A stretch of DNA of 64,000 nucleotides from positions 1 to 64,000 of the forward strand of contig CALXEW010000001.1 in assembly GCA_944387435.1 (NCBI GenBank). Reading direction: 5' to 3'. The notes under the pieces were generated by a model, which was not told where the DNA came from, ran no database searches, and worked only from the letters and a program-made list of their open reading frames with translations. Source of the DNA: an uncultured Clostridia bacterium (GTDB taxonomy: Bacteria; Bacillota; Clostridia; TANB77; CAG-508). The number at the start of each line of letters is the position of its first letter. Position 1 is the first letter of the stretch. Below are positions 41,161 to 62,861 of this stretch, piece by piece. A program made the translations under genes and the position numbers.

Positions 41161-41261
41161 AAGCAATATTTAGAAAAAAGGTTGTTGTTTTTTATTTAAA
41201 ATATTTTTATAAAACATTTTATTTATTTTGTACTTTTATGAGAACAAAAGTGGAAGTCATA

Positions 41262-41297
41262 AAAATCAGGTTAAATATTTCTATTCAACCTGATTTT
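41262..41297 (-). terminator. terminator after the B2 surface gene
   Basis: AAAATCAGGTT (41262-41272) and AACCTGATTTT (41287-41297), perfect 11-bp stem, then TTTTTATG on the minus strand. It resembles the terminator of the other module copy (52255-52298). Confidence 0.9.
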
Positions 41298-41315
41298 ACG
41301 TATCTAATTATTTAA

Positions 41316-44300
41316 TTATAATACTTTTTTCTTAATGAATACAATTCCTGCACCTAATATAACAAATGTACTAATTCCTAAAATAACATATGGTACATAG
41401 TTTTGGTTTTCTCCAGTAGGTCCTGTAATTGTTGCATCTACATGATCGTCATCATTTTCATACGTTGTACTATTTCCTGGTACAAGGTTACCAGGTGTTG
41501 ATTCATCCATAGGTTTATCCCATAGAATGTTAACTTCGATATAATTGTCAAGTGTGAAATCATCTGCATCATTTGATAACAATCTTGATACTTCCATTTC
41601 AACAGTTTTTGTTTCCCCTGGTTTCATGTTTTCAAATGCTTCTGTCTGTAATACTTGATTATATCCTTTAATTACCTCATATGCTTCTGGTGATAAATAT
41701 CCTTGTGTTACTAAGTCTTCTGTAATATCAACTAGTGTCCAATCCCCGTTTAAAGGATTATCTGGATCAAATTGTAAATCATTTGATAAGTAATCAAATA
41801 GTCTTTTTACTGTTGCTAATTTAAACTTATTTTCTCTATCTGATGGTACAATTCCATAGATATAGTAATCTTGGTCATTATAATCAATTTCTGCTTTTGT
41901 ATTATCAACTGTTATTCCATATCTTATTGTTAATGTAGCACCTTGTATTAACTCACTATCTAACTCAATAGCAACATTTCCATCTGGCAAGAATCTTACA
42001 TGTTGAAGATTATCTGTTTGAGGATTTCCCTCTATAACAACTTGTCCGTTAGCAAGAGTTACTCTAATATATGTAATATTTTTACTTAATTCAAGTGTTT
42101 GTATTGGTCTTCTTATAATTCCTAAATCAACATGTTGGAATTCAATTCTGAAATATTCTCCATATTCACTTATATGATTTAGGTCTTCATCATAGTCAAG
42201 TTCTACTTCAAATCCTCTTGTTGCTGCTTCTATTTCTTGTAGTTGAGTTTCCTCATTTGTCATAAGTCCATAATTTATTTCACGAGGTGTAGTTCTATAA
42301 TCAACTATATCAATTCTATCACCATTTTTGTTTATACCAACTTGGTCTCTTGCATCTGACAATCTATTTGCATCATCTGTACTATCTTCTCTATACCAGA
42401 AGTTACTCATTGAAGTAGCTGAGTCTTTATCTCCGCCTCTATAGATTGTTGCCTTATAATTTATAATTTCTATATCACTTACTTTATTTCCTTCTGTATC
42501 ATAAATTACAGAATTATTTCCATAAGTATAACGTATTAAGTATTTTCCTGGTATTACACCAACAAACTCGTAATATCCATCTGTTCCTGTTGTATACGTT
42601 GCATCTACAACAGATGTGTCCATCTTATATAATTGTGCAATTGATAAATTATTATCCAATACATTTACATTGCTTAAGTCTACATCGTCGCCAACACTTA
42701 ACAAATCAACTTTGACTCCTTCAATTCTACCTTCAGCATCTCCTAGGTATCCGTCACCTTTTCTTTCTTTATCATACCCTGTTAATCCAAGTAATTCTTC
42801 TCTTGCTGCATCTTCCCATACTGTACCTGTAATTTTTCTACCTTCTCTAACAGTTACGATAAATGATGGTGCTGAGTCTGTATCATCTTCATATGTTTCT
42901 CTACTAGTTGGTTCTGCAGAACCTGGATTTGAATCTTTATCAATTCCTGCATATCTAGTACTAAAGTCCTCTTCATATGAAGAATATGAAGTTATTTCTG
43001 TTACAGACTTTAACGTTACATCTTGATTTAGTACTGTATTTATAGCATCATTTTGTAATTGATATTCTATATATACTATAGTATCTGATTGTGGTCTATT
43101 TTGTGAGTTAACATCTATATATACCCTCTTATATCCATTTTGATTATATGAAGAATCTACTGTATAATTTAATTCTTCTCCACTTTCAGTCTGAATACTA
43201 CTTATATCATAATTTTCATCAAAGTAATTAACGATTTGATTTGTAGTTGTATATACAGTTGTAGCTTCGTTTCTTATAGCCACTTTATATCTTATGAACA
43301 TTTGTAATGAACCTGGATTGTTTACGTTATATGATACATCTGAAGAGAATATTTCCCTTGTATATGATGCATTTCCATAGTCAGTTCCAAACTTAACTGT
43401 CATATTAAATCCATCTGTTTCTTGGCTATCATTAAATCTTTGGTCATATCTATAAGTATGTGTATATCCGTTTAATGATATAGTAGCTTGTTCGATATCT
43501 TCTTTAACAGCTAAATCTGGCATTTCTCTTTCATAAACACCTAAGTTTATGTATGGAATCTCATCAATACTTTGTTTACGTATTGAATCATATGAAATTG
43601 CTGTTTGTCCAAGGAACGCACTTGGTGTTGCATCTTTTGTATTTGCAGTAATTAAATATTGTTCATCAATTCCTGCAATTGGGTATCTTTGTCCATCATA
43701 TCCATATAGATATTGTCCACCATAATTTAATGTACTTACATTATTAGCAAAATCATAGTTTAATCTATATACACTTTGTCCATTTCCATTTTGTGCCTCA
43801 TTATTTACTATTATTGCATAATTCTCATTAAATTGTGGTCTTAGTGCATCATCTGTTGCCTTACTTCCATTATTTAAGTCTGCGTGCACTTCAACTGATT
43901 TGTAGCACATACCATTATATACGAACTCAATATATGCTCCATCTAAATCATCAATTTTTATCTTCTTAGCTGATGGATCTCTTAAGTAATCTCCAAAAAT
44001 ATATGCTCCTTCTTCTTGTTCATTATTACTATTTGTTATAGTTCCTGTAGTTCTAGTATCAAGAACACTTCCATCGGCTTTCTTAAGTGTTACTTGTACG
44101 TTTGCTAATCTCTTATCTGCATCATCATTTGTGTCATCTTTCCACAAATCATTTTTATATGCTTGTTTTCCAGAAACAATATCTTCCCAAACATATCCAC
44201 TTAATTTTACATATACTCTCTTATTCTTAATTGTTAAAATATCAAATATTTCGTCATTTGTTCCTGCTCCTGGTCTTGTATCTACTGAGGATTGTCTAAA

Positions 44301-46577
44301 TATTTCTATAGATGATGTAGTTCCTGTTCCACTTCCCATATTGCTTTCCCAGCTTATAATAGCATTTATATCAAGACCATTTTCTTGAGCTTCATCTAAT
44401 TCGTAACCAAAGTTATCTCCTATAGATACCTCTACTACTTGATATTCTCCAATTAGTAAGTCATAAATTCTTACCACTCCATCTTGGTCTGTTATAAATT
44501 CGGTTGCTTCAGCTTCATTTGATGTTGTTTCTAATCCTCCTAAGTTGATAGTTCCTTCTACTCGTTTTTGAACATTACCATCATTGTCAATTGCAATTAT
44601 ATATCCTTCTGAATTTCTTAACTTAAATGACACCCCTGGTAATGGATGACTTTCGTTATCCATATCTATTTTTTCTATTTTCAAATTACCTGTTTGCTTC
44701 TCATTTGTTACTGTTACTAAAGTTCCTTCTTCCTTATGTTCGAATTGGACGTTGTCTGGTATAAGTGTATATCCATAATTTGGATTGTTAAGTTCTATAG
44801 TTTCATAATTACCAACATCTAAACCTGTTATTACTATTGTTCCATCAGTAGAATTAGTTACAAATACTGTAGCTTCTGCTTCATTTTCTGTATATGCTGT
44901 CATTGGATCTGTAATTTCATATACACCATCTGATACTTTATTTGCTATTACATAACGTCCTGTATCAGTATTTCTTATCTTAAATTCTACATTCCCTAAT
45001 TTTGTATTGTAATCATCTGCATCAACTTTTTCTATTGTCAAATTTGCTCTTTTTCTATAATCAACTAATTTAACTTTAGTTGCTGTATTATTAGGTCCTT
45101 TCAATTCTACCTCTATAGGTCCCGCTATATTTCCATCTATTGGTAAATTCGTTTCAGCTCCATTTCCTATTTGAACTGTTGCTTCTATAAGTTCAGCAGC
45201 ATAATTTGTTAAATCTTCATCCACCTCTTCTATGTAGTATTGATATTCAATTGATATGTTGTCAATTGTAACACTACCGTTATCAGATGTATGTATTACA
45301 GTAGCATTAGAAGAACTTGCATCATATGATGTTGATGCTCCAATTGATATAGTTGTTTGCCCTCTTATAGAACTTTGATCATTAATTCTTAAATATTTCT
45401 TTTGACCACCACTTAAATAATATATCTTAAATCCAAAGTCTTTAACATTTTCATAATTTTCTATTCCTGTATAATTACCAATCTTTCTAACTATTAATTT
45501 TCCTAAATTATTTTTAGCAGTAAATTCCACTTCGTCAGTAGATGGTTGTGTTGGTACTGGGTCTCCTCTAAATACTGATGTTCCTTGGCTACTGTCAGCT
45601 CCTATAAAAATTATTCTTGCTTTAATATATCCTGTTGATACAGCTCCAGTATTAGGATTTACTATCTCTCCTCCTCCTGATGAACCTGAAGTAGTTATTC
45701 TTACTTTTACTTCTAGATTCGTTAAAACTGCTGTTGTTACAATATAAAATTTATTTCCATTTGTAGGTATTCCTGAAACATTTTGAACTGTTCCACCTAC
45801 TGAATTTGAAAATCCAGCTACTGTTGGATTATTACTTCCATCAGTAATAGTAACTCCACTTATTGTTCCTGCCGTAGTCATTGAAAATGGTCCTATATAA
45901 CTATATGATGTCCCATTAGATTCTGTTACCTTTACTTCCGCATCTGTATCACTATGTGATGTTATAGTTGCACTAGAGCCTGTTGTTTCAGTTCTTGCAT
46001 ATCTATCCGCATAGCCTAATACTGTTGCACCTACCTTACCTGACTGTGTAAGATAAGATGACTCTCTTTTATTACTAAAAGGTCCTATTAAACTACTCAA
46101 ATCAGTAGAATTAAAGAAGTAATACAAAGCATTTCTTGCTCCATTATTTACACTTCCTCCACCTACTAGTCCTGTACCACCAGCTACTGTTGCTGCATAA
46201 CATAGATAAGCTAATTTTTTGGCATTATAAGTGTTATTGCCACTAATAGTTCCTTGTCCATAAATCTGTGTCGTATATGTTCCATTTCCATTAATATCTG
46301 TAATACTTCTAACTCTAATACCATTATTTCCAATTCCACTATTTTTCTTCTCTGTAAAACACATCCATTGTCTTTTACTATATACATTAGTTTCACTAGC
46401 AAATGCATGTCCTGCTGTTACATTCCAGAAATCACCACTATTAGCTGCTGCTGAATCTGCTAGTGATCCAATGTCAGTAGTAATAGCAATAGTATAGCCT
46501 GTACCAATTATTATCAATATTATTGCAATAATTATAGAAAAAATAATTAAGCTTTTCTTACTTTTCTTCTCTTCCAT
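41316..46577 (-). CDS. B2: giant thioester-like/SpaA/SdrD-B surface protein (1753 aa)
   Basis: Second gene of module copy 2. N-terminal membrane/signal helix at 9-30, then a thioester-domain-like region (about 60-300) with Cys73 (WMCFTEKK) but Arg148 where the partner Gln is expected (GARNALYYF). Three SpaA/Cna-B domains follow (LIVRKIGNYTG, LTIEKVDADDYN, LKIEKIDMDNES; Lys in strand 1 and Glu before NPNYGY fit isopeptide bonds), then SdrD-B-like domains and DKDSNPGS. C-terminus: GPTGENQNY, membrane helix, KKK. No LPXTG. ATG at 46577 with AAAGGAGG. Starts 19 bases after A2. Confidence 0.8.
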   Translation of the reverse strand: MEEKKSKKSLIIFSIIIAIILIIIGTGYTIAITTDIGSLADSAAANSGDFWNVTAGHAFASETNVYSKRQWMCFTEKKNSGIGNNGIRVRSITDINGNGTYTTQIYGQGTISGNNTYNAKKLAYLCYAATVAGGTGLVGGGSVNNGARNALYYFFNSTDLSSLIGPFSNKRESSYLTQSGKVGATVLGYADRYARTETTGSSATITSHSDTDAEVKVTESNGTSYSYIGPFSMTTAGTISGVTITDGSNNPTVAGFSNSVGGTVQNVSGIPTNGNKFYIVTTAVLTNLEVKVRITTSGSSGGGEIVNPNTGAVSTGYIKARIIFIGADSSQGTSVFRGDPVPTQPSTDEVEFTAKNNLGKLIVRKIGNYTGIENYENVKDFGFKIYYLSGGQKKYLRINDQSSIRGQTTISIGASTSYDASSSNATVIHTSDNGSVTIDNISIEYQYYIEEVDEDLTNYAAELIEATVQIGNGAETNLPIDGNIAGPIEVELKGPNNTATKVKLVDYRKRANLTIEKVDADDYNTKLGNVEFKIRNTDTGRYVIANKVSDGVYEITDPMTAYTENEAEATVFVTNSTDGTIVITGLDVGNYETIELNNPNYGYTLIPDNVQFEHKEEGTLVTVTNEKQTGNLKIEKIDMDNESHPLPGVSFKLRNSEGYIIAIDNDGNVQKRVEGTINLGGLETTSNEAEATEFITDQDGVVRIYDLLIGEYQVVEVSIGDNFGYELDEAQENGLDINAIISWESNMGSGTGTTSSIEIFRQSSVDTRPGAGTNDEIFDILTIKNKRVYVKLSGYVWEDIVSGKQAYKNDLWKDDTNDDADKRLANVQVTLKKADGSVLDTRTTGTITNSNNEQEEGAYIFGDYLRDPSAKKIKIDDLDGAYIEFVYNGMCYKSVEVHADLNNGSKATDDALRPQFNENYAIIVNNEAQNGNGQSVYRLNYDFANNVSTLNYGGQYLYGYDGQRYPIAGIDEQYLITANTKDATPSAFLGQTAISYDSIRKQSIDEIPYINLGVYEREMPDLAVKEDIEQATISLNGYTHTYRYDQRFNDSQETDGFNMTVKFGTDYGNASYTREIFSSDVSYNVNNPGSLQMFIRYKVAIRNEATTVYTTTNQIVNYFDENYDISSIQTESGEELNYTVDSSYNQNGYKRVYIDVNSQNRPQSDTIVYIEYQLQNDAINTVLNQDVTLKSVTEITSYSSYEEDFSTRYAGIDKDSNPGSAEPTSRETYEDDTDSAPSFIVTVREGRKITGTVWEDAAREELLGLTGYDKERKGDGYLGDAEGRIEGVKVDLLSVGDDVDLSNVNVLDNNLSIAQLYKMDTSVVDATYTTGTDGYYEFVGVIPGKYLIRYTYGNNSVIYDTEGNKVSDIEIINYKATIYRGGDKDSATSMSNFWYREDSTDDANRLSDARDQVGINKNGDRIDIVDYRTTPREINYGLMTNEETQLQEIEAATRGFEVELDYDEDLNHISEYGEYFRIEFQHVDLGIIRRPIQTLELSKNITYIRVTLANGQVVIEGNPQTDNLQHVRFLPDGNVAIELDSELIQGATLTIRYGITVDNTKAEIDYNDQDYYIYGIVPSDRENKFKLATVKRLFDYLSNDLQFDPDNPLNGDWTLVDITEDLVTQGYLSPEAYEVIKGYNQVLQTEAFENMKPGETKTVEMEVSRLLSNDADDFTLDNYIEVNILWDKPMDESTPGNLVPGNSTTYENDDDHVDATITGPTGENQNYVPYVILGISTFVILGAGIVFIKKKVL

Positions 46578-46595
46578 CAAAATACCTCCTTTCCT

Positions 46596-49500
46596 CTAAA
46601 TTTTTTTATTATCTTTCTTTAATACTTTCTTATTTATTATATAAACACCTGCTGCTATTATTGCAAGTATTGCAAATATAATTGATACAAATATTATGAC
46701 TCTACCTGTTGATATACCAATAATAACTTCGGCCTTTCCATAATCATCTTCTGAAGCATTATTATTTCCTGGAGTTGAGTCTGAATCATTTAATCCTTGT
46801 GGATTAGATGCTTGTGCAATCTCCGCTATATTTATAACCGTTCCTGTATTATCTTCAGTCATATTCTTTACTAATACTAAATCTACAGTCGTTTCTTCAC
46901 CTGGTCCTATTGGCGTATTAGATAAACTATTATTTTGTAAATTTGTATTTGATTGATACCAATCTTTATTTAATTCTGAATTAAAATTCAAATCAGATGG
47001 TATGTAATCAACTATATTTTGAACATATCCTGCAACTTCTCCTGTATTTCTTATTTTTATTGTGTATTTTATGATAACAGTTGCATTATTTACTTCTCTA
47101 GAATGTATTTCAACTCTGGCTAGAGTTTGTTCTCCATAACTATATTGAGTTGTTCCTTTATTTGTTTGTACTGTAATTTCACTTACATATTTATCTAATT
47201 CTAAATCAAATGTTGAAGCCTCAATTAAACCAATATCTATATTTGTAGCATCTTCTGATACATTAATTGTGTCTGTAGCACCTACTGTACTATTAACCCC
47301 ATCTATCATAATAGATTTACTTATAACGTCTGAGTTTTGATTTTCATCAACACCCGCTTTTCTATACTCTGTAAGTATATATCTTTGCGTATCATATTCG
47401 AATACTAATATATAACTTCCTTCATTTACATTTATTTTATATTGACCATTTCCTTCAGTAGTAACATTTATATTATCTATATACATTCCATTTTCTGCAT
47501 CTATTACTTTAACGCCTACTCCTGATAATGTTTTTTCTGTAGAATCTCTTCTTCCATCTTTATTTTCATCTATCCAAGCTACACCACTTATTGTATATTC
47601 TCCATCTCCACTTGGATTATCTGGATTACCTGGATTGTCTGGATTATCCGGATCTTCTGTTCCTGGATTATCTGGATTGTCTGGATTGTCTGGTTCTTCT
47701 GGATTTTCCTCCTCTGAAAGTCTATATACTATATCGTTTGATGTAATATCTCCCATTACTGTTGAAACTGTTAGGTTATTTACAATCTCATTATTAGGAA
47801 CTTGATTTATTGCAACATGTCCTATTATTTCTAATTTTGATGTTTCATTAGCTGCTATCTTATGTCCTTCTATATATACATCTCCTGCTTCTAATTCTTC
47901 TCCATCAAGTGTTACTGAATCTACTATAATTCCTTTTGGAATATAATCATATAAAGTAGTAGAAATTTCATTATTCGTCGTATTTTTAATTTCAAATGTA
48001 TATGTAACTTCTTGACCATCTTCTACTATTGTATCATTCTCTGGATTTGCTGTTTGTATTACCTCAACCCAATTTTCTTCTGTATCAACTTTTTGCATAG
48101 TAAAATCTTTTTCTGTACTAACTAAGTAACTCCATTCATATTCATAAGGACCTTCTTCAGCTAACTTACCATATGATAAATCAATCTTGTTTGTTACAGT
48201 ATCTGTAGCTATCTTTTCAGCATCTATTTCGATTGTAACTACAATTTCCATGCTTGTATTTCCAGATAATAATTTACCTCCTCCAAGTATATTATCTCTT
48301 ATAACAAATGCATTTTGATCTTCATCTTCCTTTATAGGTTCAGATGTTATAGGTATTTGCTCTTCACTTCCCATATATTTTACTACAGCACTTTTTGCTG
48401 TAAATCCTTCTGGCAAGCTATCTGTAACTTCAAACATTAACTCTTCTTGTTCTCTATTTTCTACAGTAATTGTTAAGTCAAAAACATCTTCGTCCTTTAA
48501 TCCTATATTTTCATCAATATTAGTACTTTGGCTTATTCCTACATTTTTTTGTTCATTATGAACTTTTATTGTCGCCATATTTGAAACATATGTATTTGTT
48601 GCTGTTGCTTCGTACATAAATGATATGTCTTTTTCTTCTTCTTCAAAGTTATCCATTTCAACATATAATTCCATTTTAGTAAGCTCTTCCGCTTCCATAT
48701 TCTGAATTTCAAATGTTAATGTATTACTTTCTCTATCATATACAATATTACTTATTCTATTTATAGTATCTGGTCTATCTTCACCAGCAACACTAGTTGA
48801 CTCCCATACTAAATCAGTTTCACTATTACAGTAAACACCTTCTGGTAATTCTACTTTTGCCCTTACATTATCTAGAGTTTCTCCTGAAATATTTTCAATA
48901 GACAAATTCATATGTACTTTTCTTCCTAAATTTATTGTTTCTTCTTCAAAGAACGAACTTGCCATTGTTAGTTTTAATTCTGCTTGGCTTATATTATTCT
49001 TTATTGTAGAAATATTTATATCTTCCATCCCATCTGCTGTAACTAAAACATCTCCATATGTTTGCTCACTATCTCCATCTACTTCTGAAACAACAATTTC
49101 ATAAGATACTACTATACTTTCTCCATTGGCTAAAGTATCAATTGTATCAAAAGTTTTTTCATTTGTATTTAGTTCTCCATACAAGTGATATATTTTTGAT
49201 GGTCCTTCTTCAGCAGCAGGATCAAAAGCTTCATACTCAACTAAATCATATAAATTACCATTTGTTTGTGTTGCTTTTATATTTACATTATTTAAATCTG
49301 CGCCTGTATTATTTGTTATTTGCATTGTATATCTAACTTTTTGTCCCTCATAAACAGAAGTTCCATCTTCTAGTTCGACTCCACCAGATACAGTTGATAT
49401 CGCAACACCAACATTATTTGCCTCTCTTGTTACAGTATTTTCTAAAGCTAATATATTATCTGTAATGATTTCTTCTGTTTTAGCACCTACTGTAGAAGAT

Positions 49501-51983
49501 TGTGTACTTACATTTCCTAGATATGTATAAGTTGTTTCTGTTTGAGCATATATACTTTCTCCATAACCTATATTTTCTGGCGTTGAAACCTGGTATCCTA
49601 CTGTAACAACTTGTCCTGCTGTCATAGTACCTAATTTTATCATATAAGAACTTGCATTTGTATAATCACCACTCCAAGATCCATCATCTTGCACAGCTGA
49701 TATATTTGGTGAATATGATACTTCAGCTCCTCCAACATTTGTACTTATTCCTTGAAGTAATGTCGTATCTAATGTAGCTCCATTCACTCCTTTTTTAGGT
49801 AATCTTCCAATAATTACAACATTATTAATGTCTGTATCATAGTTGTTAATTACTGCTGTATTAATTGTTGCAGTATTTGAATTACTATTTAGACTTAGTG
49901 TTCCTACTGGTATATTATTATCTACTGTGTATATTGAATCTCCATTATTGTTAAATCCTGATAAATTATTATATATCATCATACCTGGCTTAGATGATAC
50001 ATTTATTTCTACTGATGTACTATAAGTTCCCTCATTTCCATTTTCATTTGTATAAGTCATTGAAACATTTGTTTTTTGGCTAGGTGTTAATATATCAAAT
50101 TCGATATCAGCATTTATAACAATTGATAATTGGTTTATTTCGTTTGAATAGTCACTTTGCTCTCCTGATAAAGCAATTTGCATAACTTTTTCGCCATTAT
50201 CTCTATCTACTAATCTAGCATATTCTACACCGAACTCGTCTGCATAAACCTTGCTTATAGATTTTACAGTTAAATTAGAAATGCAACTTGGCAATGTTAT
50301 CTCAATAACAGGATTTTTAAATAAATCATAATTTTCTGAAGATGTTTTTAATGTTACTGTAAATTGAACATTTTCATTTTTTTGTAAAGTTGATAAATTT
50401 ACATTATTAATTTCTAAACTAGCTTCTGTAGTTGTATCTAATAAATTTGTTCTAGCTTCTCCAACTTGTTCTGAAATATTTGTGCTTACTTTTGTCATTG
50501 AACTTAAGGTTGTAAATTGTTTTAGTTGCTCTCTACTATATCCTGTATTTCCTTCAATGCCTTTCTTATTTCTTATAAGTAATGTTCCAACATTTATTGG
50601 TTTTGTTGTTGATATTGTTATTCCTCTTACAGGTGATGCATAACTAACTACTATATTCCCAACTTCATTTGCCATACTTTGAGAATTAATAACTGAAAGT
50701 ACACTTCCATTAACATCTTTAATTGTTATTACTCCATCTTGTCCCAATAAATTAATTATATTTTCTTTATTAAACATTGTTTCTTGATATACAGTTTTTG
50801 AACTAATATCAAATTGATTTCCATTTCCGTCTAAGAAATTCTCTTGGTTTTCAGCAATTTCTAAATTTGAAATTTCTGATTCATTAGAAATCTCTATTTT
50901 CTCTAATTCGTCATATACTGTTAAATTACTACTGTTGGCATATAAATATCCTTTATATTTAGAATCTGTTGTTTGTTTTTCTATACTTACCACATTTCCT
51001 ATCGGACTAATTTCAATATTTTGAGAATCATTTTTTTGAACATTATCTTGAGTATATAATTTAGTTGTCATATTTGTATTTAAACTAACATTTTTATTAG
51101 TAAATTCTACATTCTCGTATTCATATATAAGCTTATATACATTATTTTGTAAACTCCACACTCCATTGCTTTCATTATTTATTTGAACAATTCCTGTTTC
51201 ATTATTATATACAGCTTTATCATCTTGCATCTTATCTCCATTTAATAATACTCTTACTTTGCTTGGTTTTTGCTCATCTAAAACAGGTACTTTTACTTCT
51301 AAACTTTCATTTTCTCTCGGTAATTTGTTATCTTGAACAGATGTAGTAATATTTTGTTGTAATAATACTTTATTATTTAAGTTTATATATTTATCTATAC
51401 TTTGCATTAAAGTTACATCTGTAGAATGTTTCCAAATCACTCTTGTTTTTATTTGTGAAGATACTTCTTCACTTTTATCTTCACTCTCAGAATAATTTCC
51501 TGTAATAGTTATATTATTTTCCTTTTCAAAATAATCCACATCAAAACTATCTTGTTTTTTGAAAGTAATTGGTAGTACTATTTCCACATTATTTTGATAA
51601 ATAATCTGATTCAACTCTATTTCATTTGTATCCGCATTTATACTTTTAACATATTGACTGTTTACTTCATCCTTTAATATAGTAAAGTTTGTATTTTCAA
51701 GCTTTATTTTTGCATCATTTAAAGAACCTTTATCTTTAACATTTACATTCAAGATTAAGGTTTCTTTACTATCTAAATCACATTCTTTACTATGAACTTT
51801 TTGATTATCATTCAAAAAATAAGCATCAAATTCAACATTCTTTACATTAGTTTCTCTACTTTGACTCTCTAGTTCTTCATACATAGCAACAGAAACTTTA
51901 TAACCTAAAAATATAAAGTCTGTCATTGTAAATGTAAAAACTAACAAAACAGTCAAAAAAATCTTTAAAATTTTACTTTTCAT
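46596..51983 (-). CDS. A2: giant DUF11/SdrD-B-like surface protein (1795 aa)
   Basis: First gene of module copy 2. Signal-anchor helix at 5-30, a long extracellular region of beta-sandwich-like repeats, DUF11-type repeats in the second half (GQKVRYTMQITNNTG, GQEVTYTFEIKNTTN), a PDNP-rich linker, an SdrD-B-like domain from about 1463 (GVAWIDENKDGRRD), then a conserved C-terminal block with ELNKDWYQ and DSDSTPGNNN, a membrane helix (about 1762-1785) and a Lys-rich tail. Clear paralogue of A1 from MKSKI to the tail. GGGGAGG six bases before the ATG at 51983. Confidence 0.8.
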   Translation of the reverse strand: MKSKILKIFLTVLLVFTFTMTDFIFLGYKVSVAMYEELESQSRETNVKNVEFDAYFLNDNQKVHSKECDLDSKETLILNVNVKDKGSLNDAKIKLENTNFTILKDEVNSQYVKSINADTNEIELNQIIYQNNVEIVLPITFKKQDSFDVDYFEKENNITITGNYSESEDKSEEVSSQIKTRVIWKHSTDVTLMQSIDKYINLNNKVLLQQNITTSVQDNKLPRENESLEVKVPVLDEQKPSKVRVLLNGDKMQDDKAVYNNETGIVQINNESNGVWSLQNNVYKLIYEYENVEFTNKNVSLNTNMTTKLYTQDNVQKNDSQNIEISPIGNVVSIEKQTTDSKYKGYLYANSSNLTVYDELEKIEISNESEISNLEIAENQENFLDGNGNQFDISSKTVYQETMFNKENIINLLGQDGVITIKDVNGSVLSVINSQSMANEVGNIVVSYASPVRGITISTTKPINVGTLLIRNKKGIEGNTGYSREQLKQFTTLSSMTKVSTNISEQVGEARTNLLDTTTEASLEINNVNLSTLQKNENVQFTVTLKTSSENYDLFKNPVIEITLPSCISNLTVKSISKVYADEFGVEYARLVDRDNGEKVMQIALSGEQSDYSNEINQLSIVINADIEFDILTPSQKTNVSMTYTNENGNEGTYSTSVEINVSSKPGMMIYNNLSGFNNNGDSIYTVDNNIPVGTLSLNSNSNTATINTAVINNYDTDINNVVIIGRLPKKGVNGATLDTTLLQGISTNVGGAEVSYSPNISAVQDDGSWSGDYTNASSYMIKLGTMTAGQVVTVGYQVSTPENIGYGESIYAQTETTYTYLGNVSTQSSTVGAKTEEIITDNILALENTVTREANNVGVAISTVSGGVELEDGTSVYEGQKVRYTMQITNNTGADLNNVNIKATQTNGNLYDLVEYEAFDPAAEEGPSKIYHLYGELNTNEKTFDTIDTLANGESIVVSYEIVVSEVDGDSEQTYGDVLVTADGMEDINISTIKNNISQAELKLTMASSFFEEETINLGRKVHMNLSIENISGETLDNVRAKVELPEGVYCNSETDLVWESTSVAGEDRPDTINRISNIVYDRESNTLTFEIQNMEAEELTKMELYVEMDNFEEEEKDISFMYEATATNTYVSNMATIKVHNEQKNVGISQSTNIDENIGLKDEDVFDLTITVENREQEELMFEVTDSLPEGFTAKSAVVKYMGSEEQIPITSEPIKEDEDQNAFVIRDNILGGGKLLSGNTSMEIVVTIEIDAEKIATDTVTNKIDLSYGKLAEEGPYEYEWSYLVSTEKDFTMQKVDTEENWVEVIQTANPENDTIVEDGQEVTYTFEIKNTTNNEISTTLYDYIPKGIIVDSVTLDGEELEAGDVYIEGHKIAANETSKLEIIGHVAINQVPNNEIVNNLTVSTVMGDITSNDIVYRLSEEENPEEPDNPDNPDNPGTEDPDNPDNPGNPDNPSGDGEYTISGVAWIDENKDGRRDSTEKTLSGVGVKVIDAENGMYIDNINVTTEGNGQYKINVNEGSYILVFEYDTQRYILTEYRKAGVDENQNSDVISKSIMIDGVNSTVGATDTINVSEDATNIDIGLIEASTFDLELDKYVSEITVQTNKGTTQYSYGEQTLARVEIHSREVNNATVIIKYTIKIRNTGEVAGYVQNIVDYIPSDLNFNSELNKDWYQSNTNLQNNSLSNTPIGPGEETTVDLVLVKNMTEDNTGTVINIAEIAQASNPQGLNDSDSTPGNNNASEDDYGKAEVIIGISTGRVIIFVSIIFAILAIIAAGVYIINKKVLKKDNKKI
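47611..47706 (-). repeat. short tandem repeats encoding the PDNP linker of A2
   Basis: Repeated 9- to 12-base units (TCTGGATTGTC and variants on the plus strand) encode a Pro-Asp-Asn linker before the SdrD-B-like domain. Such repeats can change in number between strains. A1 has an Asn/Asp/Gln linker at the same place instead. Confidence 0.75.
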
Positions 51984-52031
51984 TTTGTTCCTCCCCATTT
52001 TCAAAAGATAATTTTGATTTCTTTAATATAT

Positions 52032-52060
52032 ATATTAACGACTTTTTTCGATAAAATCAA
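52032..52060 (-). promoter_or_regulatory. promoter of the A2-B2 unit
   Basis: TTGATT (52060-52055), 17-base spacer, TAATAT (52037-52032) on the minus strand. The spacer contains ATCGAAAAAAG, a Spo0A-box-like sequence also found upstream of spoIIE. Confidence 0.6.
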
Positions 52061-52254
52061 TATAATATTTTTCCATATATGGCAAATATTACAAAAAAAC
52101 TTCTTTTTTCCTCTAGGGATGCTTTATTTGGGATTTTGATATGTAATTTTTTTTAATTTTTTATTACAAGTTCTTTACAAAAAATCCAAATACACTTTAC
52201 TAAAACCCGCAAATCCCTTATTTACGTAGCTTTCACGATTTTTTCATAAAAAAG

Positions 52255-52298
52255 AAGAACCTGATTTGTTAGATATACAATCTATAAATCAGATTCTT
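52255..52298 (-). terminator. terminator after the B1 surface gene
   Basis: AAGAACCTGATTT (52255-52267) pairs with AAATCAGATTCTT (52286-52298) with one mismatch, followed by CTTTTTT on the minus strand. It shows that A1-B1 and A2-B2 are separate transcripts. 52061-52254 holds nothing else recognisable. Confidence 0.85.
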
Positions 52299-52315
52299 TT
52301 AATAGTTTATAACTG

Positions 52316-55300
52316 TTATTTATTTCCTAAAGCTTTTCTTTTAATTAATAATATTCCTACTCCTAATATTACTAATGCTGCTACGCCTATTGCAACCGGT
52401 ATAATAAATGATAAATTCTGACCTGTACTTGGTGTAACAATAACTGTTTCGGCAATATTATCATCAGCTTCTGTTCTTCCTGATCCTGGAATATAACTTC
52501 CTGGTGTTTCGTCTGGTTTAGAACCTCCTGTTTTATCTAATCTATTAATTTCTGTTTCGTTATCTATTGAGATATCTTCAGATGTTGACAATATCTTAGA
52601 TACTATTAAGTCTACACTAGCTGTTTGCGTTGGTTCTAATTTTTCATCACTTAAGCTTTCTGTATATAAAATAGTCTTATCATCAATAGTTGAATTTTCA
52701 TCATTATATACTACTTCGGCTATTGTATCTTTAATTTCGTCTAATGTTTTAACTTCCCAATCAGGATTTCTTGTATTATCAAATGCCCAATCATTATCTA
52801 GATAATCTATTATAGCTGTTGGCGTAATTGTTACAACATCACCTTCTACTATTCCATATGTATAGAAGTTTTCTGATAAGTAATCTAATTCACTTAAGTT
52901 CGTTGTCTTGATTTCATATCCAACCTCTAATCTTGCACCTTGTATTAGCTCATTATCTAGCTCTACTCTTACATATCCATTTTTTGGACTTGCTGTTTCT
53001 GATGGTCCCATATGTGTTAGATGTCCAGTTTCTCCTGTTATATTACCATCTTCATCAAATGTTACATCTGTTACAACTTGCCCATTTGCAAGGGTTACTT
53101 TTAATGTTTTTACTCTCTTAGATAAATCTAATTTTTGTCTTGCTCTTTCAACTATACCGAAATCAATATTGTTAATTTCATAAGTATATTTATCTCCTGA
53201 AGATGCAGTATAACTACTTTCATATTCTACACCGATTCCCATCGTAGGAGTATATGAGTTCATTTTATCAATTGTTGTTTGTGTGTTATTAGTAATTGTC
53301 TTGATTTCTTCATCAATTTGTTGTCTTAGTTCATAATCATCAATAGCATCTGTTAACCTTGTGTCTACATTTTCTTTAAACCATTGCTTATTGGTTTGGT
53401 CTCTTGTGCTATCATATACTGTTCCTTTGTATTTTTGTACTGTATATGTTTCGTCTCCCCAAGTATATGTTAGAACATAATCTCCTGGTATATAATCTGT
53501 AATTAAGAAGTCACCATTACTATCAGTTGTAGCTGTATAAACTTTCCCACTTCCTGTATTTTCTGTTAAAGTAACTGCTACTCCTTCAATTCCAATTTCT
53601 CCTTCTTCATATGCTCCAGAACCTTGTCTTACCTGTCCTGTCATTAATTCTCCTGATGTTGAGTCTAAGAAGACCTTACCAGATAATTGTCTTGCATCAG
53701 CAAGTTCTAGTTTGAAACCAGGTGCTGAATCTGTATCATCTTGATATGTTGTTGTATCTCCTGGTGTACTATTTCCTGGGTTAGAATCTTTATCTATACC
53801 TGCATATACACTTCCATTTCCATCAAATACTGAATAAGAATTAATTTCTACAACATTGTCTAAAACTTCACCATCATTTAATAAGTTAACTACTTGTTCT
53901 CTACTTAATTGGAATTCTATATATATGTCTGTTTGTTTTTGAGCTTCTAATCTACTATTTGTTTCTATTACTGTTTTCGTATATTCATCGTTATATGCTG
54001 TATCTGTGTGAACAAGTTCTTCTCCTGTTATACTTCCGTTTTCGTCTAAAGTTGTACCTGCTCTTAGAAGTGTATAATTACTGTCATAGTAATCTACTAT
54101 GCTATTTATTTGAGTGATTAAATTTGTAGATTCATTTCTTAGAGCTATTCTGTATGTTACATAAACCTTTAATTCTCTACTTGAATCTTCTTCATTTATA
54201 TACTCATAATCGGCTTTATAAATTGCTCTTGTATACGACATTGAACCATATTTTTGTCCGAATTTTACACCAACATTAAATCCATCACCGTATTCACCTT
54301 GATTTACAAATCTTTGTGAATATTGATATACATGTTGATATCCATTAACTGCAACTCTTACATTCTCCAAGTCTTTTATTAACGCCATATCTGGTTGTTC
54401 TCTTTCATATAAACCTTGATTAATCCATTTAATCTCTTCCATACCATATGTAAAATTATCCCAAATGCTATAACCTGTCTCATCAGTATTTCCAGTAATT
54501 AAATATTGTCCATTATTAATTAATGTTGCTATATGTTCATTCTTATCTAAATTATAGCTTAAATCATGAACTTTATTTCCATTTTCATCAAGAGTTATGC
54601 CTGTATCTTCTGTTTCTCCACCTTCTACAATGCTAAAGTTTTTATTAAATCTATCTCTAACTTCTGCATTTTCTGCGGATTTAGAACCTTTTTCTTCATT
54701 TTCTAAATGTGGAATTACATTTGTATATGTTAATCCATCATATTCAAATTCAATATAGTAATCTTGTAATTTTTCAATTAAGACATCCATAAACAAGTAT
54801 TTTCCACCATCTGCCGTTGTAGCCTCCATTACAGTTTCACCTGTTGTTCTATCTTTTAATCTTACTGTAATTCCATCTAATAGGATATCACCATCATCCA
54901 AATCATTTTCTTGGAATAAATCATTCCTGTATGATTGCTTTCCTGATATCTTGTCTACCCATACAATTCCTGATAATTTTACATAGATTTGTTTGTTTTC
55001 TATCATGAATTCTGTTGTCTCATCAGCTACTATTGTTGTCACTTGTCCATCCGTTAAGAACTCGTAACCATAATTTGGATTCTGAGTTTCATATGCTGTA
55101 TAAGTTCCTACTACTAAATTTTCAATATAAATTTCCCCATTTTCATCTGTTATAAACTCTGTCGCCTCTTCTCGAGTATCTACATATGAAATAGTTCCAT
55201 CTTCATTTTGTTTAACATATTTTCCAAGTTCATTATTCATAATGTAGAATCCTACACCTGGTAATTTGAATTCATGATTATCTTTATTTACTTTTATTAT

Positions 55301-56218
55301 TCTTAAACGCCCTATTGTTGTTATATCATAATCAAAATTTATTTCTATATTTTGAGTAGTAGTATATGGTTCTCTAACCAACATGTTTTGCAAATAGTAT
55401 TCATTATTTTCCAAAAACCATATATTTACTCCTTTAACTTCTATTTGTGCATTACCTGTAATCTTAGTTATCTTTGTAATATTTCCATCTAACGGAACTG
55501 AAATATAGAAATCTACACCTGATTTTATTCCACTTACATCAAAGAAATTTTCTGTTGTTCCTGAAAAACTGCTATATAATTTTTCAGCTATTGGATTAGA
55601 ATCTTGATCAAACACATTTACTTCTGTTATCGTTCCACCAAAACTCCAGTTAAATGGTCCTATTCTCATATAAGCTTTGCCATCTTTTTCATAAGCTACT
55701 ACTTGTATATTGTCTTTATTGGTATTATCTGTGGCATTATTCATATTTGATATTTCATTTGCATAATCTATAGCATCTTGGTCTAATAATGTTGAGCTTC
55801 CTTGTTGACTACCCGCAAACCCTGCATATAATCCTGCATGATATTGTCCTACATTATTCATCCATGTATATCCAAAATTCCAAATAGCATTTTGTACAGG
55901 TCCCGTAGTTTTTATGGGTCCATTATCTTGAGATAGTATATATGCAAATCTAGCATTATCAAAACTATCTATTGTTTTTCCTGTATGATCTGTAGATTTA
56001 GTTCCTTCAATCCTTACATTTGATATAACTCTGTAACTCATAACACTTTTAGTATATTGTCCATGCTCCATACAAAATATATTGCTACTATCTAAATATT
56101 GACGTTGTGTTAATGTTAAATTTTGTCCTACATAATATGCATTTGATATTGTTGTAACTCCTAATATTAAAGCTACTATAATTACCGCCATAAATGCTAA
56201 TTTCTTTAATTTGCTCAT
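52316..56218 (-). CDS. B1: thioester-domain/SpaA/SdrD-B surface protein (1300 aa)
   Basis: Second gene of module copy 1. Signal peptide 1-27, then a thioester-like domain with Cys49 (IFCMEHGQ) and Gln109 in VQNAIWNF, the pair that forms the internal Cys-Gln thioester in this family. A SpaA/Cna-B domain follows (302-410; LRIIKVNKDN and YETQNPNYGYEF fit a Lys-Glu isopeptide bond), then SdrD-B-like domains (413-500 and about 850), DKDSNPGN, and a C-terminal TPSTGQN, membrane helix and Lys/Arg tail. Thioester domains bind host or surface molecules covalently. 22 bases after A1. Confidence 0.83.
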   Translation of the reverse strand: MSKLKKLAFMAVIIVALILGVTTISNAYYVGQNLTLTQRQYLDSSNIFCMEHGQYTKSVMSYRVISNVRIEGTKSTDHTGKTIDSFDNARFAYILSQDNGPIKTTGPVQNAIWNFGYTWMNNVGQYHAGLYAGFAGSQQGSSTLLDQDAIDYANEISNMNNATDNTNKDNIQVVAYEKDGKAYMRIGPFNWSFGGTITEVNVFDQDSNPIAEKLYSSFSGTTENFFDVSGIKSGVDFYISVPLDGNITKITKITGNAQIEVKGVNIWFLENNEYYLQNMLVREPYTTTQNIEINFDYDITTIGRLRIIKVNKDNHEFKLPGVGFYIMNNELGKYVKQNEDGTISYVDTREEATEFITDENGEIYIENLVVGTYTAYETQNPNYGYEFLTDGQVTTIVADETTEFMIENKQIYVKLSGIVWVDKISGKQSYRNDLFQENDLDDGDILLDGITVRLKDRTTGETVMEATTADGGKYLFMDVLIEKLQDYYIEFEYDGLTYTNVIPHLENEEKGSKSAENAEVRDRFNKNFSIVEGGETEDTGITLDENGNKVHDLSYNLDKNEHIATLINNGQYLITGNTDETGYSIWDNFTYGMEEIKWINQGLYEREQPDMALIKDLENVRVAVNGYQHVYQYSQRFVNQGEYGDGFNVGVKFGQKYGSMSYTRAIYKADYEYINEEDSSRELKVYVTYRIALRNESTNLITQINSIVDYYDSNYTLLRAGTTLDENGSITGEELVHTDTAYNDEYTKTVIETNSRLEAQKQTDIYIEFQLSREQVVNLLNDGEVLDNVVEINSYSVFDGNGSVYAGIDKDSNPGNSTPGDTTTYQDDTDSAPGFKLELADARQLSGKVFLDSTSGELMTGQVRQGSGAYEEGEIGIEGVAVTLTENTGSGKVYTATTDSNGDFLITDYIPGDYVLTYTWGDETYTVQKYKGTVYDSTRDQTNKQWFKENVDTRLTDAIDDYELRQQIDEEIKTITNNTQTTIDKMNSYTPTMGIGVEYESSYTASSGDKYTYEINNIDFGIVERARQKLDLSKRVKTLKVTLANGQVVTDVTFDEDGNITGETGHLTHMGPSETASPKNGYVRVELDNELIQGARLEVGYEIKTTNLSELDYLSENFYTYGIVEGDVVTITPTAIIDYLDNDWAFDNTRNPDWEVKTLDEIKDTIAEVVYNDENSTIDDKTILYTESLSDEKLEPTQTASVDLIVSKILSTSEDISIDNETEINRLDKTGGSKPDETPGSYIPGSGRTEADDNIAETVIVTPSTGQNLSFIIPVAIGVAALVILGVGILLIKRKALGNK

Positions 56219-56239
56219 TTAATTTCCCCTCCTTTCCTT

Positions 56240-59200
56240 CTATATTTCCTCTTTATTTTTTTTATTTTTTCTAATTAATACATAAGCGATTACTCCTAGA
56301 ATTGCAACTGTCCCTATAGCTACACCTATATAGATTGCTCCACCTGTTCTAATTCCTAAAAGAACATCTGCTGAACCCATATCATTTTCTCCATTTGTTC
56401 TATTTCCTGGTGTTGAGTTGCTATCTGTTAAACCTAATTCATTATAAGCTTCATCTATTTCTGCTGTATTGTTAATTAGTCCTACATTATTTTCTGTCAT
56501 TGATTTTGTTAATGTTAATGTTATCTCTCTTGATTCTCCAGCTGCTATTACATCGTTTGCTAAACTTTCATTATATAGTCCATTTCCTGTTTGATACCAA
56601 TCTTTATTTAATTCTGAACTAAAACTTAAATCACTTGGCATATAGTCTGCAACTCTTCTAACATATCCTTCAACTTCTCCTACATTAGTTACTCTTATTT
56701 TATATTCTATTAATACTGTTGCCCCATTTATCCTTTTTGCATCTAATTCTGCTCTTGCTAATATTTCTTCATTGTATTCTTTTACCGTACTTCCACTTGA
56801 ATCTTGAATTACAATTCTGCTAACAAATTTTTCAAGTTGTAAATCAAAATTTTGTAATCTTACAAATCCTACGTTAATATCAGAAATATTCTCTTCATTC
56901 ATTTCTAGAATGTCTGTTGATGCAAACTCCTCTGTTTGTCCTTCTATGCTTAATTCTTTCATAATAGCATCTGAATTATTTGATTCATTTACTCCCTGTG
57001 CTTTATATTTTGTTAGTGAATATTCTGCATTATCGTAGTCAAATATTACTATATATTGTCCAGTTGTTATATGATCTAGTACATATACTCCATTTTCATT
57101 AGTTGTAGTCTCTAAAATACTTCCGTCTTGTTTTTTCACTAAAGTATTTGTTTGTGTATTATATAGTCTAACTTTTACTCCTGATACAACTTGTTCACTA
57201 CTATCTTTTTGTCCGTTAGCATTTTCATCAAACCATGCAACACCTGTTATAATTCCTGTTCCATTGGCTACATCATTACCATTTGAATTATTATTATCGT
57301 CATTACCAGGTTGATTTGTATTTCCATTATCTTGATTGTCTTTTGCCTCTATTATATGAGTAACTTCTGTAGTTGTAGCTATCCTTTCTGCCAATAACTC
57401 TGCATAAGCAATATTAGTAATTGCTTCTGCTTCTGTCCTTCCTTCTGAATAATTTACAAGTGTTTCTATTTCTATATTGCTTTCACTTCCTGAAGCAATG
57501 TTACAACGAATTTCTATGTTATTTTTTTCTTTTAATTCTGTAATTTCTTCACCATCAAATGAAACCTTAGTTACAGTTAAACTAGATGGCACTGTATCTT
57601 TTATAATCAAATTATTAATATCTTGTGTTCCATTATTTTTAATATTAATAGTGTATTTTATTGTATCTCCAGCTTTTACATAATTACTTTCTGGTTCTGC
57701 TGTCATAGATAAACTTACATCTACTTTTCTTACATTATCCTTTATTTCATTTGAACGATATTTATCATTATTAACACTTGCGGATACAGAAAAATCAATT
57801 GTCTCTCCTTCATTAAGCTTATTAATTTTCAAATCATAGCTTAATACTTTGTTTTGACCTGGCTCTAAAGATCCAATATTCAACTCTTCTTGATACTCAA
57901 TTTCTTCTGTTTGGGTAACATGACCACTAGTATTCTGAGTTAGCTCTTCCTCTGTAACCTCTGTAACTCCCGCTGTTTCTCCTTGTTCGCTATCTGATGT
58001 TATTGGAAATAAATCATCGTCAGAAACATCTTCTGATGACATTCCTGTAACTAAATTTAATCTTGCCACTTCTAATGAGCTTGGCATATTAGTTTTTACT
58101 ATTATATCATTTTGTGTCTCGCCTGAAATATTCTCTACTATTGCAAAATATTGTACATTCCCTGTTTCGTATAAATCAGTACTTCTATCTGTTACTCTTT
58201 TAACAGTAATACGAACATTTCCATTAGCTGTAATTAAACTTGATTCTTCAGATTCTTTAGTTACATCACCATATGTTATACTTGATTTATTTACTAAATT
58301 TGTTCCTACTTGTGTATCATTGTTAACTCTTACTTCATATTCTCTTGTTGCGACTTCCCCAACTCCTAAAGATTCAATTGTATCTTTATAAGTTCTACTA
58401 TCTAATTCATCGTAATATGAAGCTCCTGTATATTCATAATTATCTTTTGGCGTAACTAAAGTTGTTCCTTCTGGTACATTTCCTTGAAGTACTACATTGC
58501 TTATATCTTCACTTCCTATATTTGACACTTCTATTTTATATTTAATTACTTCACCATTTCTCACTGTTGCACCATTTTGTTCTTCTGTCCCTGACACACT
58601 TGCTATTAATCTTGTTTCTAAATTTGGTCCAACTCCTGTCTCTAATTCGATTGCTGTAGCTTCCATTTGATTTGTAGCTTTTGTTAATGAATTTTGGTAA
58701 TTAACTGTATAGTCTTGACTAGCCTCTTGATTATATTCTAATGATGCAGGGACCTTTGTTGTATAATCAGCTAAAATACTTGTTCCAGCTTCCATTGTAG
58801 GTACTTCTATTAAATATTTTCTAACTTTTGTACCATCTGTTATACTTTCCTGCCATCCATTTTCTCCATTTTGTAAATCATCTGTAGCGTTCTCATTTTC
58901 AGTATAATATACTTTTACTCCTTCTACCCCTTGAACATTAAGTCCTTGAATTACAGTCGTATCTATATTATTCTTTTCATTTTTTGTTGGGAATGTTCCT
59001 AAAACTTTTACATTCTCCATAGTATTTTCATTGTTGTTTATTACTTCTATTTGCGTTTGCAAATCTTTTTCTTCAGAGCCTCTATCAAGACTTACTACTT
59101 TTGTCTCTTCTTGTCCTATTGTCTCTATTCCTAAATCTTTTATATTATGAATTACTGTCATATCTGTTGGCGCAACTACCTTTATTCCATTTTCTGCTGT

Positions 59201-61081
59201 TACTACTTCTCCTTTGTTTTCAACTGTCATTATTACTTTCCCATCTTGTGTCGCAGATTTTCTATTTACATTTGCTATTGCATCTATTACCAACATAGCT
59301 CCATCTATTCCCGCTTCTTTATAGCCTGTTTGTTTTCCTGATAATTCAACAGTTATTGTTCTTCCATCAGTCCAATAATTCGCTATTGATAATTCCGTTT
59401 CATATAATAGTTCTATATTGTTTATTGTAATATTTTCTACTGGCTCTGGTAATTCAAAAGTAACTCTTGGATTTTCATATAGGTTATATTGTTCGTTGTT
59501 ACTTCTCAAAATTGTTCTTATTTCTACATCATTTGATACAACTGTTGATAAAGTATCTTTATCAACGCTTAAAGCTGCTACTGTTGTTGACTCTTCTAAT
59601 TTTATTCTTGCTTCTGAATTAGATGTTACTCCTAAAGAATAATCAATTGTTACATTTGAAACTAATTCATTTGCATTTACAATATTATTTTCTTGTCCAG
59701 ATTTTATTGTCTTTGTATGTGTAAATATTAGATTTCCTTCTGATATAGGTGTTGTTACCCTTATTTTCAAACTAGACGGTTCTCTTCCCTCATAATCAAT
59801 AACTAAATTTCCATTTTCGTCCACTGGAGTTGCTGAATTTATTGTTCCTAAAATTCCTCCGGCTTCATTTAATATAGTTATACTTCCATTTTGTCCTAAT
59901 ATTTGGTCAAAACTATTTTTTGAAATACTTGTCTTATTGTAAACAACATTTGCGCCAATAGTTTGTCCGTCATTTAAAGAATAATAACTTGCATCTTCTT
60001 TTATAGAAACATCTTCTTCACTATTTGCTAGGTTCACAATTAATTCAGTTCTAGTTTCAAAAGTTCTGTCTAAAGAAGCATTTATTTTTCCCTTATACAT
60101 TGTTCCTTCTAATGGAACATTTTTAATTTGCATTAAAGCATCTTTTTCTTCATTCCCTAATTCTAATGTATTTGAAACTTTTATTTCTTTATCATTATAC
60201 AATTTTACAGTTTGTTCTATAGGTAGTTTATTACCGTTTAATTCGACATCTTTACTATAAACTAAAGTTAATATTACATTTTCACATCCTGTTTTTTTCC
60301 ATAAAATTTTATTTTCCTCATTTGGTTCATTTGTGAATTGTAAATTAACACTTTGATCATCTAAATTGTATTCAAAATGCGTCATAGTATTAAAATTAGC
60401 CTTTGTTACAATTTCTGGAGTTTCTTCACTATTTGGTAAAGTAACATTTGTATTTATTTCTTTTATAGGATAATTATTTTCTTTTAACCCCATATTCATA
60501 GAAAGTTGTACAATTCTTCTTTCTTCTCCATTTACTTTCACAATTTTATTTGTGATTATATCCATTGTGTCTTCTACATTTTCTTCATTATTGTTTTCAG
60601 TATACTCTAATTCAATCTCTCTAGTTGCCTTTATATTTATATCTTTTTGAGTACTATCTTTATATATGCCTGTCAAGCTTAAACTTGATACAGCATTTAA
60701 TAACCCTACATCTAGATTATCTTCTTTTATAGGTTCTATTTCAACATCAAAACTAGCTGTACTGCCAGCATTTATTTGATTTAATGTTATTTTGTTTCCT
60801 TCTATTTTGTTTACATATTCACTAGTAGAGTTTTTAAAGTTAAAATTACTATTTTCTAAAGTAATTTCACCATTAAAATATCCTTCATTTTTTACTGTAA
60901 CACTTAATGTTAAAAGATTTTCACTCTTTAATTCAGCTATATATTCTATATTTCTATGATTAGTAGAAATATCTTCTGCTGCTAAACTTACAAGTCCCAC
61001 TCCAACGTAAACAAAATTAATCATTGTTAGAGTGATTAATAATAACATAACTGTCACTAATTTTATAATTTTACTCTTCAT
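56240..61081 (-). CDS. A1: giant DUF11/SdrD-B-like surface protein (1613 aa)
   Basis: First gene of module copy 1. Signal-anchor helix (about 8-34), beta-rich repeats, DUF11-type repeats (GEVIKYKIEVSNIG, GDTIKYTINIKNNG), an Asn/Asp-rich linker, an SdrD-B-like domain from about 1276 (GVAWFDENANGQKD), then the conserved tail with ELNKDWYQ and DSNSTPGN, a membrane helix at about 1583-1603 and a Lys-rich end. Paralogue of A2 throughout. AAGGAGG before the ATG. Consensus-like promoter upstream. Confidence 0.8.
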   Translation of the reverse strand: MKSKIIKLVTVMLLLITLTMINFVYVGVGLVSLAAEDISTNHRNIEYIAELKSENLLTLSVTVKNEGYFNGEITLENSNFNFKNSTSEYVNKIEGNKITLNQINAGSTASFDVEIEPIKEDNLDVGLLNAVSSLSLTGIYKDSTQKDINIKATREIELEYTENNNEENVEDTMDIITNKIVKVNGEERRIVQLSMNMGLKENNYPIKEINTNVTLPNSEETPEIVTKANFNTMTHFEYNLDDQSVNLQFTNEPNEENKILWKKTGCENVILTLVYSKDVELNGNKLPIEQTVKLYNDKEIKVSNTLELGNEEKDALMQIKNVPLEGTMYKGKINASLDRTFETRTELIVNLANSEEDVSIKEDASYYSLNDGQTIGANVVYNKTSISKNSFDQILGQNGSITILNEAGGILGTINSATPVDENGNLVIDYEGREPSSLKIRVTTPISEGNLIFTHTKTIKSGQENNIVNANELVSNVTIDYSLGVTSNSEARIKLEESTTVAALSVDKDTLSTVVSNDVEIRTILRSNNEQYNLYENPRVTFELPEPVENITINNIELLYETELSIANYWTDGRTITVELSGKQTGYKEAGIDGAMLVIDAIANVNRKSATQDGKVIMTVENKGEVVTAENGIKVVAPTDMTVIHNIKDLGIETIGQEETKVVSLDRGSEEKDLQTQIEVINNNENTMENVKVLGTFPTKNEKNNIDTTVIQGLNVQGVEGVKVYYTENENATDDLQNGENGWQESITDGTKVRKYLIEVPTMEAGTSILADYTTKVPASLEYNQEASQDYTVNYQNSLTKATNQMEATAIELETGVGPNLETRLIASVSGTEEQNGATVRNGEVIKYKIEVSNIGSEDISNVVLQGNVPEGTTLVTPKDNYEYTGASYYDELDSRTYKDTIESLGVGEVATREYEVRVNNDTQVGTNLVNKSSITYGDVTKESEESSLITANGNVRITVKRVTDRSTDLYETGNVQYFAIVENISGETQNDIIVKTNMPSSLEVARLNLVTGMSSEDVSDDDLFPITSDSEQGETAGVTEVTEEELTQNTSGHVTQTEEIEYQEELNIGSLEPGQNKVLSYDLKINKLNEGETIDFSVSASVNNDKYRSNEIKDNVRKVDVSLSMTAEPESNYVKAGDTIKYTINIKNNGTQDINNLIIKDTVPSSLTVTKVSFDGEEITELKEKNNIEIRCNIASGSESNIEIETLVNYSEGRTEAEAITNIAYAELLAERIATTTEVTHIIEAKDNQDNGNTNQPGNDDNNNSNGNDVANGTGIITGVAWFDENANGQKDSSEQVVSGVKVRLYNTQTNTLVKKQDGSILETTTNENGVYVLDHITTGQYIVIFDYDNAEYSLTKYKAQGVNESNNSDAIMKELSIEGQTEEFASTDILEMNEENISDINVGFVRLQNFDLQLEKFVSRIVIQDSSGSTVKEYNEEILARAELDAKRINGATVLIEYKIRVTNVGEVEGYVRRVADYMPSDLSFSSELNKDWYQTGNGLYNESLANDVIAAGESREITLTLTKSMTENNVGLINNTAEIDEAYNELGLTDSNSTPGNRTNGENDMGSADVLLGIRTGGAIYIGVAIGTVAILGVIAYVLIRKNKKNKEEI

Positions 61082-61117
61082 AATAAACCTCCTTAGCTTA
61101 TAATACCTCTATTTACT

Positions 61118-61146
61118 ATTATAACCTTTATTGGTAGATTTTTCAA
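61118..61146 (-). promoter_or_regulatory. promoter of the A1-B1 unit
   Basis: TTGAAA (61146-61141), 17-base spacer, TATAAT (61123-61118) on the minus strand. A small perfect dyad (AGTGTT-TTTGT-AACACT, 61235-61251) lies further upstream in this divergent region. Confidence 0.8.
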
Positions 61147-62759: not shown

Positions 62760-62861
62760 TTTTACATCCTTCCAATTCACATTTTACATTTAAAATATAA
62801 TATAGAAATCATCTATTGTCAATATTCACATTATATTTTATACATTTATAAATTTTATAAC

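Follow-up and report, generated by a model that had tools for sequence, protein, structure and literature searches.

Gene content of the A1-B1-A2-B2 array

The window analysed here is the whole stretch of 64,000 nucleotides of DNA from an uncultured Clostridia bacterium, and all coordinates are counted from its first letter. Four giant genes were found in the order A1-B1-A2-B2 described in the original prediction; all are intact and encoded on the minus strand. The length of A2 was counted from the ATG behind GGGAGG. The array and its flanks comprise the following features.

62897..63982, minus strand: penicillin-binding transpeptidase gene (mrdA-like), conserved upstream flank
62145..62780, minus strand: minC, conserved upstream flank
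61118..61146, minus strand: promoter-like site before A1, TTGAAA-17-TATAAT, 11/12
56240..61081, minus strand: A1, multi-Ig stalk protein of 1613 aa with a signal peptide (1-30) and an SdrD_B domain
within 56240..61081, minus strand: A1 C-terminus, putative isopeptide-type domain (K1418/D1479/N1538), then LGIRTG, a transmembrane segment and a basic tail
52316..56218, minus strand: B1, predicted class II thioester-domain adhesin of 1300 aa (C49/Q277)
55319..56137, minus strand: part of B1 (residues 28-300) predicted to be a class II thioester domain, with Cys49 and Gln277
within 52316..56218, minus strand: B1 downstream modules, CnaB/SpaA (K309/E377/N408), SdrD_B and the predicted sorting signal TPSTGQ
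52246..52305, minus strand: terminator hairpin 3' of B1, fold -17.3 kcal/mol, z -4.9
46596..51983, minus strand: A2, A paralogue of 1795 aa with IGISTG and a transmembrane segment
41316..46577, minus strand: B2, B paralogue of 1753 aa with a TED-like head, several SpaA domains and the predicted sorting signal GPTGE
41255..41305, minus strand: terminator hairpin 3' of B2, fold -19.4 kcal/mol, z -7.8
38538..40997, minus strand: spoIIE, conserved downstream flank

A1 and B1 are separated by 21 bp, B1 and A2 by about 0.3 kb, and A2 and B2 by less than 20 bp, and a Shine-Dalgarno sequence (AAAGGAGG) stands ahead of the B1 and B2 starts. The hairpins behind the two pairs have like arms (AATCAGGTT/AACCTGATT), which, together with their folding energies, agrees with the claim that similar terminators follow both pairs. 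The companion claim, that each pair has its own promoter, was half supported: TTGAAA-17-TATAAT directly 5' of A1, sigma-70-like in form, is the top promoter-like site in the region, whereas no site of comparable strength was found by the scan before A2. Since the region-wide promoter scan returned 112 sites against 128.6 in shuffles, i.e. no excess, position-specific sites alone were considered.

Beyond the array, a small Asn/Gln-rich gene (61290-61748), for which no Pfam match was found, and its neighbour (61749-62144) run on the plus strand, in the opposite direction to A1, and are kept beside the array in many relatives. A WG-repeat protein is encoded at 36955-38475, just 3' of spoIIE.

Predicted domains of the B and A proteins

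In thioester domains (TEDs), the cysteine occurs in a [YFL]C(hydrophobic)(polar) motif, and its bond partner is not the helix motif (as VQNAIW) but a late Gln, which in class II TEDs stands in a weak (hydrophobic)Q(polar)(hydrophobic)(hydrophobic) motif (PMC4450167, PMC6194298). The corresponding stretches of B1, FC49ME and LQ277NML, fit both patterns. C49 is present in 67/67 aligned B heads and Q277 in 39 of the 40 heads where the alignment reaches; in a wider B set the counts are 76/77 and 86/92, respectively. Gln109, which lies in the VQNAIW helix, was considered as the thioester Gln and rejected, because the late Gln is the bond partner and Q277 is conserved; Gln109 is changed to Ala in many species, so that a bond at this residue would have meant repeated loss.

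The model of B1 residues 1-310 has a pLDDT of 92.9, and its top two solved structures in Foldseek are the class II TEDs 6fwy (E=3.8e-6, prob 1.00) and 6fwv. TM-scores to known TEDs are low (0.2-0.3), and VIA-align gives Z 7.0-7.7 (7.7 over 207 residues), a range flagged by the tool's own warning, so the placement of the lobes is uncertain. The modelled head has the beta-barrel and the helical lobe with a beta-sandwich insert of a class II TED, in an uncertain lobe arrangement. Pfam TED (PF08341) matched none of 12 B proteins at E 0.01, and NCBIfam gave little beyond DUF11 repeats.

Behind the head, SpaA (PF17802) scores above cut-off in B1, and the triad K309/E377/N408, a Lys-Asn pair with a catalytic Glu, is kept in nearly all B proteins, which is consistent with a CnaB-type isopeptide domain; SdrD_B-type domains come after it. 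The head of B2 carries C73 and Q331, both conserved among slot-2 orthologues, with a poor motif around Q331. Most B tails contain P-x-T-G, commonly as [IV]TPxTG[EAQ], an LPxTG-like signal that predicts sortase anchoring. With these conserved residues and the confident fold, the thioester and isopeptide assignments of the original prediction are supported, and B is best described as a predicted class II thioester-domain (TIE-type) adhesin whose head is probably thioester-reactive.

The model of the first 880 residues of A1 (pLDDT 87) is a string of Ig-like domains, whose closest bacterial counterparts are the stalk domains of PrgB, antigen I/II and pilins; an SdrD_B domain is also present in A. 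Integrin-like matches of the same model were taken to reflect generic strings of Ig domains, and comparison with solved structures turned up no full-length relative of A. K1418, D1479 and N1538 in the C-terminal domain are each kept in 88/89 A proteins, and the triad fits an isopeptide bond. The anchor of A reads [SG][IV]xTG, with xTG, a hydrophobic segment and a basic tail in 88/89; its Pro is replaced, mostly by I or V, in almost all, and this proline-less form is not among the established sortase motifs. Eight sortases are encoded in the genome, none of them on the contig that carries the array. The B tails suggest anchoring by sortase, and A may be anchored likewise.

Given the pilin-like Ig, CnaA and CnaB domains in both proteins, A and B could be subunits of a sortase-assembled pilus, with A as the shaft and B as a tip resembling Cpa of Streptococcus pyogenes, a tip pilin that bears a TED (PMC4450167, PMC8092201). 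We consider such a pilus improbable, since neither the array nor its contig holds a sortase, a linked class C sortase included, and A has about 1600-1800 residues and an anchor of its own. Known shaft pilins are far smaller.

Conservation of the pair and exchange of cassettes

When the genome contigs were scanned with B1 alone, 17 loci were obtained, and A lies upstream wherever the locus extends that far. At genus level an A match occurs in 144/147 genomes and a B match in 137/147. Within the GTDB family, the A profile matches 191/195 sampled genomes and 38/39 genera (E <= 1e-20; some weaker A matches may represent the C-terminal domain alone), and the B profile matches 163/195 genomes and 37/39 genera. 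A is nearly confined to this one family: in other families of the order it is nearly absent, the main exceptions being one genome (G367) and a fragment in another (G352). The match in G367, which belongs to a different family of the same order, is full-length (contig C64:7610-12469, 1533 bits) and may reflect transfer or binning contamination.

Across all related loci, A lies directly 5' of B in 93/97 unfused B genes having their 5' end, with a modal gap of about 20 bp, and in 20 loci picked through B matches in other genera, covering about 17 further genera, A is just upstream in nearly all. A and B are thus consistently neighbours, as they should be if the proposed pairing is real. Among the four B genes without a direct upstream A, that of L041 is frame-broken, with A further up, and that of L048 is cut at the locus edge; at L044 and L082, which may be true exceptions, B stands without a recognisable A. 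The site of the array is also fixed, other genera included: it is bordered upstream by minC and the mrdA-like transpeptidase gene and, as far as the sequence extends, downstream by spoIIE. In relatives an array holds one to about five cassettes. L046, L047-L048, L049 and other loci of the genus contain up to about five A-B cassettes with the site unchanged. Multi-cassette arrays occasionally include short A remnants (e.g. 830 and 871 aa), as if cassettes had been gained and eroded.

The distance trees of A and B correlate with a mirror-tree r of 0.72. When partners were exchanged between the two pairs of one genome, the mean r was 0.39 and the maximum 0.61, and 0/1000 exchanges reached 0.72. 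A and B co-diverge as cognate pairs, a pattern that tight linkage alone can yield.

A1 and A2 align with 29% identity over residues 1-1050 (E=1.8e-39) and 36% over 1009-1608 (E=3.1e-89), and their homology runs end to end, in line with the predicted alignment from start to tail. B1 and B2 are 40% identical over B1 residues 404-1297 (E=2.8e-115), and matches in the SpaA and TED regions are weaker; the common regions claimed for them are clear in the last two thirds and fainter in the front part. The genome contains no A-B pair besides A1-B1 and A2-B2.

More large proteins are encoded on two other contigs of the same genome (C34 and C41), and what they have in common with A is the C-terminal domain only. 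These proteins (L011:4585-8508 and 8671-10068 on C41; L012:1-4049 on C34) carry TED-like motifs of their own (e.g. YCVKAG, QQAAIWYF), DUF11-type repeats, the A-like C-terminal domain and an SVSTG anchor. They are apparently tandem and lie close to plsX and a D-Ala-D-Ala carboxypeptidase gene, and the two contigs may join within the large-protein repeat.

In a sister species, identity is 81% to A1 and 85% to B1, while slot 2 holds a distinct fused subfamily with about 31% identity in the A part and about 45% in the B part. This contrast between the slots marks slot 2 as a site of cassette exchange rather than a recent copy of slot 1, with cassettes there swapped between species. In the A tree, A1 and A2 fall in separate, old clades; they are old paralogues and do not stem from a recent duplication. 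The idea that a local duplication had let the pairs diverge was therefore not upheld.

Fused A-B proteins and a proposed two-component surface unit

One clade encodes A and B together in a single ORF, 2770-3180 aa long where complete. Counting partial ones, 17 distinct fused ORFs were found in different species, and the 16 that could be placed in the A tree form one clade. At the junction, A's anchor helix leads into a short loop bearing 3-7 Lys/Arg, behind which comes a second hydrophobic helix, corresponding to the B signal peptide, which ends at a small-residue, signal-peptidase-like site (VYA, VFA, SYA, VSA and similar); the site residue is Ala in 15/17 by script and Gly in the remaining ones by eye. 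A start codon preceded by a Shine-Dalgarno sequence is absent from the loop but present in 77/93 separate B genes, which suggests that the fused chain is made as one piece with a hairpin topology.

The related loci are metagenome-assembled and a few arrays (L025, L041) contain broken genes, so the fused ORFs might be assembly or readthrough artefacts without functional message. We regard this as very improbable, and it is largely refuted by the recurrence of the fusion in different species and in a single clade; both hydrophobic helices, the basic loop and the cleavage site are all kept, and the internal start is absent.

Of the thioester head, the fused B proteins retain the beta-sandwich part but not the Cys lobe, which suggests that thioester chemistry is not essential for A-B pairing. 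In such heads (e.g. L018:14781-23804), a short Cys-containing, Gly/Ser-rich segment replaces the Cys lobe, often with two nearby Cys.

The junction sequence suggests that the fused chain could be processed into separate A and B proteins. FbcH offers a precedent, as a bacterial polyprotein that signal peptidase cleaves. We tentatively propose, as a possibility with less than even chances, that A and B together make up an obligate surface organelle of two proteins, characteristic of one clostridial family, and that one clade makes it as a polyprotein: a single-ORF transmembrane hairpin whose A anchor helix and B signal peptide would be cut by ordinary sortase and signal peptidase, giving strict 1:1 delivery to the wall.

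That A and B are joined in a single protein suggests one working unit. Taken with the adjacency in 93/97 and the cognate co-divergence, this fusion makes the two-component surface unit put forward in the original prediction the best reading, and we infer a physical interaction between A and B. It seems to us somewhat probable that the locus consists of arrayed A-B cassettes, each specifying two cognate, wall-anchored giants that work as one unit, with B as the covalent capture head and A as the partner stalk. At the tip of B, the class II TED would form an internal Cys-Gln thioester and react with a nucleophile on the target surface; it would be carried on isopeptide-stabilised CnaB and SdrD_B domains, with TPxTG anchoring B. 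A would be a longer rod, built of Ig-like domains and anchored through a proline-less [SG][IV]xTG motif of its own, acting as scaffold or spacer. Most likely, the two would be made at a fixed ratio and co-exported, and would come together at the wall as a paired stalk or a single heteromeric fibre.

The main rival is that A and B are linked yet independent adhesins, brought together by operon inheritance, common regulation and joint duplication without contact. Tight linkage would suffice for their co-divergence and synteny, their sorting motifs differ, and the C-terminal domain of A also occurs in proteins without B. Even so, the A-then-B order is near-invariant across the whole family, whole cassettes are swapped at slot 2, and natural fusions occur, all of which exceeds simple neighbourhood, and we therefore hold independent adhesins to be the clearly less probable explanation, though a serious one.

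Compared with the TIE adhesins (BaTIE 6FWV, EfmTIE86 6FWY and TIE-pLS20), B likewise has an N-terminal TED with the [YFL]C-hydrophobic-polar Cys motif, the late hydrophobic-Q-polar-hydrophobic-hydrophobic Gln and the beta-sandwich insert, followed by CnaB domains and a C-terminal anchor. B differs in being longer, with SdrD_B domains and a TPxTG motif, in escaping the Pfam TED model, in being paired with an upstream A gene, and in having one sub-branch that lost the Cys lobe. The S. pyogenes Cpa/FCT pilus tip resembles the array in that a TED adhesin is encoded with a partner surface protein, but the array lacks a linked pilus sortase, and the partner is a 1600-aa multi-Ig rod instead of a shaft pilin. 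The Ig-like folds of the A model match the stalks of PrgB (8beg, Foldseek E=6e-19) and antigen I/II (C-terminal domains, VIA Z about 11), and the SdrD_B domain is common in sequence to the SdrD/UafA B domains (10ps); the likeness to all of these is, however, limited to common stalk folds. A literature search returned no description of the A-B pairing, an absence that is weak evidence. The fused ORF is a candidate for a bacterial surface polyprotein that is processed by housekeeping enzymes, and the A-B pair is likely a key surface system of a large uncultured group. With a fixed chromosomal site, exchangeable cassettes and natural fusions, the idea of covalent adhesins as two-component devices becomes testable. 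Thioester adhesins known so far are single proteins or pilus tips; here, such an adhesin comes with a giant partner of its own in nearly an entire family of uncultured Clostridia.
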